Source of the DNA: Prochlorococcus sp. AG-402-O21
GTDB taxonomy: Bacteria > Cyanobacteriota > Cyanobacteriia > PCC-6307 > Cyanobiaceae
NCBI GenBank assembly: GCA_003216375.1
Contig: QCIZ01000008.1
Location: 1 to 64,000 of the forward strand
Reading direction: 5' to 3'
Length of the DNA stretch: 64,000 nt
Shown here: positions 61,815-64,000 of the stretch, in pieces
How the letters are laid out: each line of letters begins with the position of its first letter
Position numbering within the stretch: the stretch's first letter is position 1
Program-made: the position numbers and the translations under genes
The notes under the pieces: generated by a model
Told to the model about the DNA's origin: nothing
The model's database searches: none
What the model saw: the letters and a program-made list of their open reading frames with translations, nothing else

Positions 61815-62330
61815 TTAAAACATCTCGCCTTTTAGTTTCTCAGCCCATCCTGAAAGTCTTTCATCAGTCATGTCTGATTCACTGTCTTCATCAAGTGGTA
61901 ATCCGCAAAATTCTTCTCCAACTACACTTTTTGACTCGTCAAAAGTGTAATCAGTTTTTGAAGTGTATCCAACCATTGAGGCACCTGCTTGCTTGAAGTA
62001 CCTATGAAGTTCTTCCATAGCATCACAATAGTTTTCGGTGTAAGTAGAAGAATCACCCAAACCGAAAATTGCAACTTTCTTCCCGCTGAGATCTAGCTCT
62101 CCAATGTCTTCAAGGATGGAGTCCCAAGCAGTTCCTGATCTCTCAGAGTCAGCGCCAGTATTCCATGTAGGGATTCCACAAATAACCCCATCATGTCCAG
62201 CTAATTCACTAAGGTCATCGACATCTGAAATATCCTTTGGACCTTCAGCAGAGTCAAGTAAGCCGTGCAGCCGTTCAGCTATATCTTCGGTTTTACCTGT
62301 TGTTGTAGCGAAGTAGATTCCTACAGTCAT
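61815..62330 (-). CDS. fldA: flavodoxin
   Basis: An FMN-binding electron carrier that replaces ferredoxin when iron is short (isiB in cyanobacteria). The phosphate-binding loop ATTTGKTED follows the N-terminal VGIYF strand. Then come GIPTWNTGADSERSG, which holds the Trp over the flavin, GLGDSSTYTENYCDAM, which holds the Tyr side, and TSKTDYTFDESKSV, the long-chain insert. The length of 171 from the ATG at 62330 is normal. A longer frame upstream to 62441 adds a hydrophobic, non-family N terminus and was not used. Confidence 0.95.
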   Translation of the reverse strand: MTVGIYFATTTGKTEDIAERLHGLLDSAEGPKDISDVDDLSELAGHDGVICGIPTWNTGADSERSGTAWDSILEDIGELDLSGKKVAIFGLGDSSTYTENYCDAMEELHRYFKQAGASMVGYTSKTDYTFDESKSVVGEEFCGLPLDEDSESDMTDERLSGWAEKLKGEMF

Positions 62331-62792
62331 GGAGCAATTTAAAATCAAGAATATTTTAAAGCAGCTTTGCACATTTAGAGTGAATTTGGTTTTTTTTAAA
62401 TTTTCTTGTCTATTAAATATTGATTTTTGATACATAAACAAGTCAATATTTATTCCTTTGCTTACTAGTCAACTAATTTCTAATATTGCTTTTCCTGCTA
62501 ATCACGATTCTTAGATTTAGTCTCTTAAAGGGTTTTCAGAGAAAAATCTTCGGAAAATTTTCGAAGAAAAAATTTACTGCTATAGATTTGTTATTAACTT
62601 GAGAAAAAGATTGGGAAATAAGTCAAAAAGGTTCTTATTAAAGATCTTTATCTGAAAACATTTGTTTTTTTAATTAAAGCATCTTCTTCAATCTAAGTAA
62701 TGGCTGAAGTTTTGTTTATAAATCCTTGAGGTAATTGGTGATTTAACTTTTGATAGCTGGTTCTATCTGTTTACGCTTTAACTTGAATCAAT
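62331..62792. other. noncoding stretch between flavodoxin and the 145-aa protein gene
   Basis: About 460 bases with an inverted repeat at 62547-62567 and no supported gene. It carries the promoter of the flavodoxin gene, but I could not place -10 and -35 boxes or a Fur site with confidence. Confidence 0.5.
62547..62567 (-). terminator. inverted repeat, possible terminator of the 145-aa protein gene
   Basis: TCTTCG and CGAAGA pair across a nine-base AT-rich centre, and the minus strand continues ATTTTTC. It is 226 bases past the stop of the gene at 62793 and 217 bases before the flavodoxin start. Terminator and regulatory roles are both possible. Confidence 0.35.
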
Positions 62793-63230
62793 TTATAAGG
62801 TTGGTCCCATCATTCCAAAACCACTTTGAAGACCAAAGGAAATGATTACAAAAGTACTGATAGCCAAACCAATTAAAACTGATGTGTAAAGCCTATTAAC
62901 TCCATACCCAGCTTCAACAGGATTGAAATCAGCAACCACAAAAGATTTTTTACTGTATTTACCTCTATCGGTAAGACCTATTGCACCTAGTGCTGTCTGA
63001 GGTGTAAGTGAACCACCCTCGTCATCTAGGAACCAAGGCTTGCTTGGGCCGTTGTTCTCAGGAGCTGATTGCGCTACGGAAGTTGCTGGAGAAGAACTAT
63101 TAATTCGGCTGGAATCTTCTTTGAAAAATCTTGGAAACATATGGGTATGCCAGAGGCCGATTACTCCAGCCCAAGCAACCATGCTTACTCCAGCTAATCC
63201 GAAAAGAATTTCTTTAAAACCGAATTCCAT
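62793..63230 (-). CDS. two-helix membrane protein of unknown function (145 aa)
   Basis: The N-terminal helix (about residues 6-28, EILFGLAGVSMVAWAGVIGL) is followed by WHTHMFPRFFKED, a His-containing loop. A soluble middle has PWFLDDEGGSLTPQTALGAI and FVVADFNPVEAGYGVNRLY. The second helix is near 117-138 (TSVLIGLAISTFVIISFGL). I do not recognise a family. It is divergent from the PsbF-like gene with about 190 bases between starts and shares a photosynthetic neighbourhood with flavodoxin. The layout looks like a small photosystem- or cytochrome-complex-associated subunit, which is inference only. Confidence 0.65.
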   Translation of the reverse strand: MEFGFKEILFGLAGVSMVAWAGVIGLWHTHMFPRFFKEDSSRINSSSPATSVAQSAPENNGPSKPWFLDDEGGSLTPQTALGAIGLTDRGKYSKKSFVVADFNPVEAGYGVNRLYTSVLIGLAISTFVIISFGLQSGFGMMGPTL

Positions 63231-63423: not shown

Positions 63424-63717
63424 ATGAACACACTTAAATTATTGCTGGTTCTATCTCCAGTTATTTTTACTCTTGCCTTTGCTGATTATTGGTTACGTAG
63501 GTGGGGAGTATTTGTCTGGGATAATGGCCCAACTATTAAAAATGAGCAAGTTTGGGAAGATACTGCAATTGTTACTGATAAAGGAAGACCTGCAGGGGGT
63601 TACCCAGTTTTTACTGTTAGAACTTTGGCGGTGAATGCATTGGGTATTCCAACAGTGTTTTTCCTTGGTGCGATTTTCGCAATGCAATTTATTCGCCGTG
63701 GTGTAATAAACGCATAA
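63424..63717 (+). CDS. PsbF-like membrane protein without the heme histidine
   Basis: The C-terminal half, [20 protein letters not shown] and then [17 protein letters not shown], matches the cytochrome b559 beta subunit (PsbF) almost end to end. In PsbF the motif reads FTVRWLAVH, where His binds heme; here Trp is Thr and His is Asn. A second helix precedes it (about residues 4-28, [20 protein letters not shown]) with a soluble link [20 protein letters not shown]. The family is normally about 45 residues; this protein has 97. I chose the ATG at 63424; a TTG at 63379 extends it by 15 residues. It cannot bind b559 heme by the usual ligand, so it is probably not the structural PsbF. Confidence 0.7.
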
Positions 63718-63878: not shown

Positions 63879-64000
63879 ATGGAAAGTCAAGAATCAAATC
63901 AGATTGAAAATAATAGCTCTACAGCTGTTTTAGAAAATACTGAAACCGAAATTGTTACTTCGGTCAGTCAACCAAGCAACATTAATAAAAAAGAGGTATT
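63879..64000 (+). CDS. partial gene running off the window end, unknown function
   Basis: The frame starts ATG at 63879 and stays open for 40 codons to the window edge. The N terminus is acidic and Ser/Thr/Asn-rich (MESQESNQIENNSSTAVLEN), a flexible leader with no membrane segment. The real protein cannot be identified from this piece. Confidence 0.55.
   Translation, partial: MESQESNQIENNSSTAVLENTETEIVTSVSQPSNINKKEV

Follow-up and report, generated by a model that had tools for sequence, protein, structure and literature searches.

A branch of Prochlorococcus, a globally abundant group, seems to have swapped a standard subunit of photosystem II (PSII) for a fused form without the heme histidine. 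The stretch of DNA analyzed here (64,000 nucleotides; "the window") encodes a 97-residue protein that, as far as sequence can tell, is a fusion protein in which a PsbY-like helix precedes a PsbF-type one, with asparagine where PsbF carries the histidine ligand of the cytochrome b559 heme. In a PsbF subunit that lacks this histidine, the heme must be either held differently or gone. Most likely, the fusion would be a working beta subunit of PSII whose b559 has one histidine ligand or no heme. The reading we favor, at a probability of roughly 0.6, is that the fusion took the place of both psbF and psbY in the window's genus (g1), yielding a b559 beta subunit with a single-histidine heme; the same replacement of both genes probably took place in the related genus g27.

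The fusion gene and the likely origin of its added helix

The gene runs from ATG to TAA at 63424–63717 on the plus strand. An alternative frame with a TTG start would encode 112 residues; we preferred the ATG at 63424 because relatives (e.g., L004 and L006) have a stop codon just upstream of the aligned start. The protein scored above the curated cut-offs of PF00283 (36.8 against 30; residues 60–82) and TIGR01333 (64 against 61.15; residues 59–92), and matched the NCBIfam family NF002717 over residues 3–97 (172.4; cut-off 153), where it is already catalogued as a long PsbF under the name "cytochrome b559 subunit beta, long form." Its top match among solved structures was a PsbF chain (E 7.8e-12). 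Within the PsbF-type helix region (residues 60–92; 63601–63699, plus strand), the motif reads FTVRTLAVN: Asn71 (63634–63636, plus strand; codon AAT) faces the heme-ligand histidine of the solved PsbF chain, and Thr67 (63622–63624, plus strand) stands at the PsbF tryptophan position, as judged from the counts of long and short forms given below. Five residues follow IRR at the C-terminal end. The predicted structure consists of two helices (mean pLDDT 61.8), of which the N-terminal one (residues 2–26; 63427–63501, plus strand) was modeled at low confidence. The original prediction had described a PsbF-like end with asparagine for the heme histidine, an added N-terminal helix and a five-residue tail, and was correct on all three.

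Sequence comparison identifies the N-terminal helix as PsbY-like, the likeness being limited to the helix. Seven of 80 further genomes, all seven without the fusion, carry an open reading frame (ORF) of 35–55 residues that matches only the fusion N-terminus. All five such stand-alone ORFs compared with Pfam matched PsbY, two of them above the cut-off, and a sixth ORF was also above it. In a profile comparison, the N-termini of 14 fusions scored 99.3% against ten stand-alone PsbY-like ORFs (three of them high-light) and 95.2% against six canonical PsbY sequences, with 1.6% for a PsbJ control. The Pfam PsbY model itself (PF06298) gave no match at E 1 to the window's fusion and none to the fusions of L123 and L124; its match to the fusion of G072 was weak, at 17.7 bits against a cut-off of 24. 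The same model found no PsbY in eight g1 genomes and G062 (g27) except two E 0.3 matches within longer frames. A separate PsbY above the cut-off was present in nine genomes carrying both the fusion and a PsbF with histidine (His-PsbF). G111, G080 and G060 had only a divergent PsbY-like ORF, and G085 had no PF06298 match.

The stand-alone PsbY-like ORF at two loci (L107 and L113) and the fusion at two others (L122 and L124) lie near a pentapeptide-repeat-like gene, recognized by eye. This common neighbor suggests that the fusion arose there.

A second ORF of ∼61 residues with a similar N-terminal helix was seen beside the fusion at L114–L121 (g41, high-light Prochlorococcus). Its tail mostly ends ENIF(L/I)TKN (for example, L115:1704-1892, minus strand), and its match to Pfam PsbY was not significant (E 4.5).

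An invariant asparagine and a missing psbF

Homologs were surveyed for the asparagine, a check proposed with the original prediction, and the residue proved to be conserved. A pattern left open at the heme position collected 152 distinct sequences (109 long and 43 short forms), with asparagine in 109 of 109 long forms and histidine in 43 of 43 short PsbF sequences. The Trp/Thr position held threonine in 108 of the 109 and tryptophan in 42 of the 43. Among the loci with a full-length family match, read with a pattern that left the Arg, Trp/Thr and heme positions free, arginine and asparagine were found in 51 of 51, with threonine in 50 and tryptophan in one (G072). Asparagine was also present in all 80 of the best loci listed from genomes labeled Prochlorococcus, Synechococcus or Synechococcaceae, a set chosen by likeness to an alignment of asparagine forms and not a census. 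Alignment A1 was drawn with a pattern requiring Arg and Asn and is not counted here as evidence for conservation; in a set whose pattern required Asn, the codon was AAT in 84 cases and AAC in 17. A dN value for psbE, derived with a pattern that fixed its first 46 residues, is likewise left out of the evidence. Within the window's genus, the PsbF part (codons 59–92) had a mean dN of 0.0048, a dS of 0.82 and a dN/dS of 0.006 (30 distinct genes; 428 of 435 pairs, seven saturated pairs having been dropped). The corresponding dN/dS of the PsbY-like part plus linker was 0.109 (435 of 435 pairs).

The presence of asparagine without exception in independent assemblies, together with the dN/dS of 0.006, rules out that it reflects sequencing error, pseudogene decay or chance, to which we assign next to no probability. 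The 51, best 80 and 109 sequences counted above likewise dispose of a sequencing error whose correction would restore histidine, which had been raised at the outset. A phage origin was rejected as well: phage records gave no match at E 0.01, and of 10 stretches of viral contigs that fit a pattern, none encoded a relative.

The fusion is confined to a part of the class. A match at E 1e-20 was found in 21 of 388 genomes sampled across it, all in the window's family and distributed over five genera. In g1, 26 of 37 genomes had the full gene, one more had it truncated at the edge of a contig, and the ten genomes from which it was absent were 51%–93% complete. The 80 further genomes were hand-chosen to represent each genus of the family once and to include likely carriers; the long form occurred in 25, 15 alongside a short PsbF and 10 without. 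Informative among these ten are G062 (one contig, 100% complete) and G201 and G281 (both g1); the long form was also the only one in G072, G095, G118, G151, G260 and G362 (64%–90% complete). The high-light strain G308, at most a tentative candidate for a separate loss of psbF, also had the fusion only; 72 kb of the 400 kb around its synteny-expected psbEFLJ reads N.

The long form of G072 (L101/L125) carries the asparagine and retains the tryptophan (FTVRWLAIN). It is a possible intermediate. A search of this assembly did not find psbE.

A true psbEFLJ operon had been expected elsewhere in the genome. Instead, psbE-psbL-psbJ occurred without psbF in all 26 g1 loci read and in G062, the psbE–psbL spacer being 29–30 bases long in g1 and 34 in G062. 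(We located psbE in nine of 11 g1 genomes in one set and in 17 of 17 in a second.) All eight loci of g40, g41, g34, g77 and g58 have psbF in the middle, after psbE and before psbL. Searches for PsbF found nothing besides the fusion in the window's own genome (PF00283 and TIGR01333) or in six single-contig g1 genomes (G002, G011, G020, G026, G032 and G033; NF002717 and TIGR01333), and these six also showed no separate PsbY better than E 0.3. A psbF concealed in missing stretches of every one of these genomes is a remote possibility. The gene psbE was not found in the window's own assembly or in G034, and a 2-kb probe of the psbE region was also without a match; judging from its relatives, the window genome's own operon would lack psbF. 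The original prediction had taken this being the only PsbF gene as grounds for refutation. In g1 it is the sole PsbF found, yet its reading as a PsbF relative stands, and its sole status combined with the loss of psbF from the operon points to a putative change in core PSII rather than an additional subunit.

The partner subunit has also changed. In a search that fixed neither the heme histidine nor the third residue after it (+3), the histidine of PsbE was present in 59 of 59 distinct sequences from 75 loci. The +3 residue was alanine in every one of the 27 loci that lack psbF (19 distinct sequences) and threonine in the remaining 48 of 48 (40 distinct; some genomes were counted twice); in three of these 48, psbF reads RWLALH. 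In our own alignment, this threonine is T26 in Thermosynechococcus (T.) elongatus numbering, the position of the published b559 mutation T26P (PMC4709441). The coincidence of the Thr-to-Ala change with psbF loss is suggestive of a matching change in the two subunits, and the change was probably one event on one branch.

Possible states of the heme

PsbY and PsbF have opposite orientations in the membrane. We picture the fusion as a helical hairpin (PsbY helix, cytoplasmic linker, PsbF helix) that would fill the places of both subunits, a layout that fits these orientations as well as the two helices of the low-confidence model. The PsbE histidine and the conserved arginines would still hold the heme, whose other face would meet Asn and Thr, giving a five-coordinate or weakly six-coordinate and probably low-potential heme. 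Retention of the PsbE histidine and the arginine suggests that one histidine continues to bind the heme, and the fixation of Asn and Thr suggests a remade heme face rather than a dead site. In T. elongatus, the PsbF arginine is reported to contact a heme propionate (PMC4709441), and it is this arginine that all 51 family-match fusion loci have kept. In Arabidopsis, PsbY has been reported as necessary for high-potential b559 (PMC9214863), which indicates that PsbY and b559 act together.

The main rival, which we regard as rather unlikely, has the fusion replacing PsbF and binding no heme, with PsbE and the fusion serving structure and assembly. One axial ligand is indeed gone, and a replacement within the fusion was ruled out, since none of the 21 fusions aligned has any other His or Cys; moreover, the T. 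elongatus alpha-subunit mutants H23A and H23M are described as assembling active PSII with apo-b559 (PMC4709441). The same source reports that in Synechocystis most replacements of either heme histidine were not tolerated, asparagine being absent from those it lists. Three indirect observations argue against a heme-free b559: the PsbE histidine is kept in all 19 distinct alanine-form sequences, the heme-side arginine of the fusion is kept in 51 of 51 loci, and a dead site would not be expected to keep an invariant asparagine. The fixed asparagine (109 of 109 distinct long forms) could also be read as a sign that the Asn/Thr pocket holds a cofactor other than heme, such as chlorophyll, which asparagine can ligate in plant antennas; given that the arginine contacts kept are those suited to heme propionates, we find this highly improbable.

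The neighboring genes bear on two further readings. Upstream and divergent, gene X (62793–63230, minus strand) encodes a protein with a WH..MFP (Trp-His) motif in its first hydrophobic stretch; the window's copy had no Pfam or NCBIfam match at E 1. By hand count, 18 of 22 fusion-bearing genomes contain X, against one of 15 without the fusion (Fisher p 7e-6, relatedness ignored). Within g41, where X adjoins the fusion, it was found in four of four carriers and none of three non-carriers. Trp-His was kept in 17 of 17 X ORFs recovered from 19 X loci (13 through a pattern requiring MFP.FF and four more through a looser one; two were not recovered). On this association and the kept Trp-His, the missing ligand might come from another protein, for example the histidine of X, leaving b559 six-coordinate. 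We consider such a donor very improbable, since X is absent from three g58 fusion carriers, G111 has X with the fusion absent, the X of G033 reads broken, and several lineages with X also retain a His-PsbF. X was also absent from the incomplete G095. In the single-contig genome G033, X matches at C1:794576-795009 fall in two frames with stops. G397 has two fusion copies (L114 and L115), each accompanied by a second ORF and a gene X of its own.

Downstream, gene Y starts within the window (63879–64000, plus strand, by ORF reading) and extends to ∼64400 of the contig. By eye, kin of Y could be recognized next to the fusion at loci of g1, g27, g34, g63, g40 and g41, and three of its relatives had no Pfam match at E 10. 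A flavodoxin-like ORF (61815–62441, minus strand; recognized by eye) lies nearby; in g1 and g27, such a gene comes after X, again judged by eye. The original prediction had remarked on a nearby flavodoxin; the gene is there, and its link to the fusion consists of gene neighborhood.

Linkage to X and Y could mean that the fusion belongs to a different complex. If so, PSII would use PsbE alone or an unrecognised partner, and the fusion would sit with X and Y in another membrane complex. The conserved neighborhood fits this arrangement, as does the fact that, among the 80 further genomes, 15 of 25 carriers also encode a normal PsbF. We judge it improbable on two counts: the PsbF helix region of the fusion is nearly identical to canonical PsbF except at the ligand positions, and both psbF and a recognisable psbY are lost where the fusion stands alone. 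In the carriers that retain a normal PsbF, the role of the fusion is not that of sole PsbF; under the favored single-histidine reading, it would there make an alternative PSII or an alternative assembly intermediate.

More tentatively, the clade may run all of its PSII with the fusion, so that an open Asn/Thr pocket on a single-histidine heme would turn b559 from an electron shuttle into a small-molecule site. Such a site might conceivably bind or process superoxide, peroxide, O2 or NO. Bis-histidine b559 would then perhaps not be universal, and relatives encoding both forms might be able to switch between kinds of b559.

The "PsbF-like protein" of MIT9312 is presumably the high-light fusion. 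Its transcript has been measured (PMC6517427), and in SS120 the protein entry PSBF_PROMA, which may be the long or the short form, has been quantified (PMC5451487).

Significance and comparison with known systems

The function of the b559 heme in PSII is a long-standing open question. Strains seemingly without one heme ligand, set against relatives that keep the old and the new form, allow redox potential, photoinhibition, side electron flow and the heme content of each PSII to be compared directly. Confirmation of the single-histidine form would break the rule of a two-histidine b559 in PSII and physically link PsbY to b559. In the open-access literature (subscription journals lay outside the search), we found neither the asparagine nor the PsbY fusion nor the absence of psbF described. 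Our additions to the known NCBIfam family are the PsbY identity of the helix, the psbF-less psbE operon, the PsbE Thr-to-Ala change and the finding that, outside the window's genus, the fusion can coexist with a normal His-PsbF.

The fusion shares with PsbF (TIGR01333, PF00283) the transmembrane sequence, the arginine before the ligand site and a likely partner in PsbE. It differs in having Asn for His, Thr for Trp and an added PsbY-like helix, in its length (97 residues against about 45), and in the position of its gene outside the psbE operon. NF002717 is the same protein family, matched over its full length above the cut-off, although the family name is silent on the lost ligand, the PsbY part and the missing psbF. 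The resemblance to PsbY (PF06298) lies in the N-terminal helix, and stand-alone relatives of the fusion match PsbY, whereas the window's fusion falls short of a Pfam match and is like PsbY in the helix only.

Among solved structures, chain F of PDB 7ymi (99 residues, labeled "Photosystem II protein Y") also combines a PsbF stretch (11–47) with a weak PsbY-like one (63–83). Its order is reversed, with PsbF first, and its heme histidine is present; it is either a natural reverse-order fusion or a labeling matter. Engineered b559 heme-ligand mutants, as reported in PMC4709441, resemble the fusion in the removal of one axial histidine, but they are laboratory-made and mostly harmful in Synechocystis, whereas the fusion is natural, affects the beta side, carries asparagine and has a PsbE change alongside.
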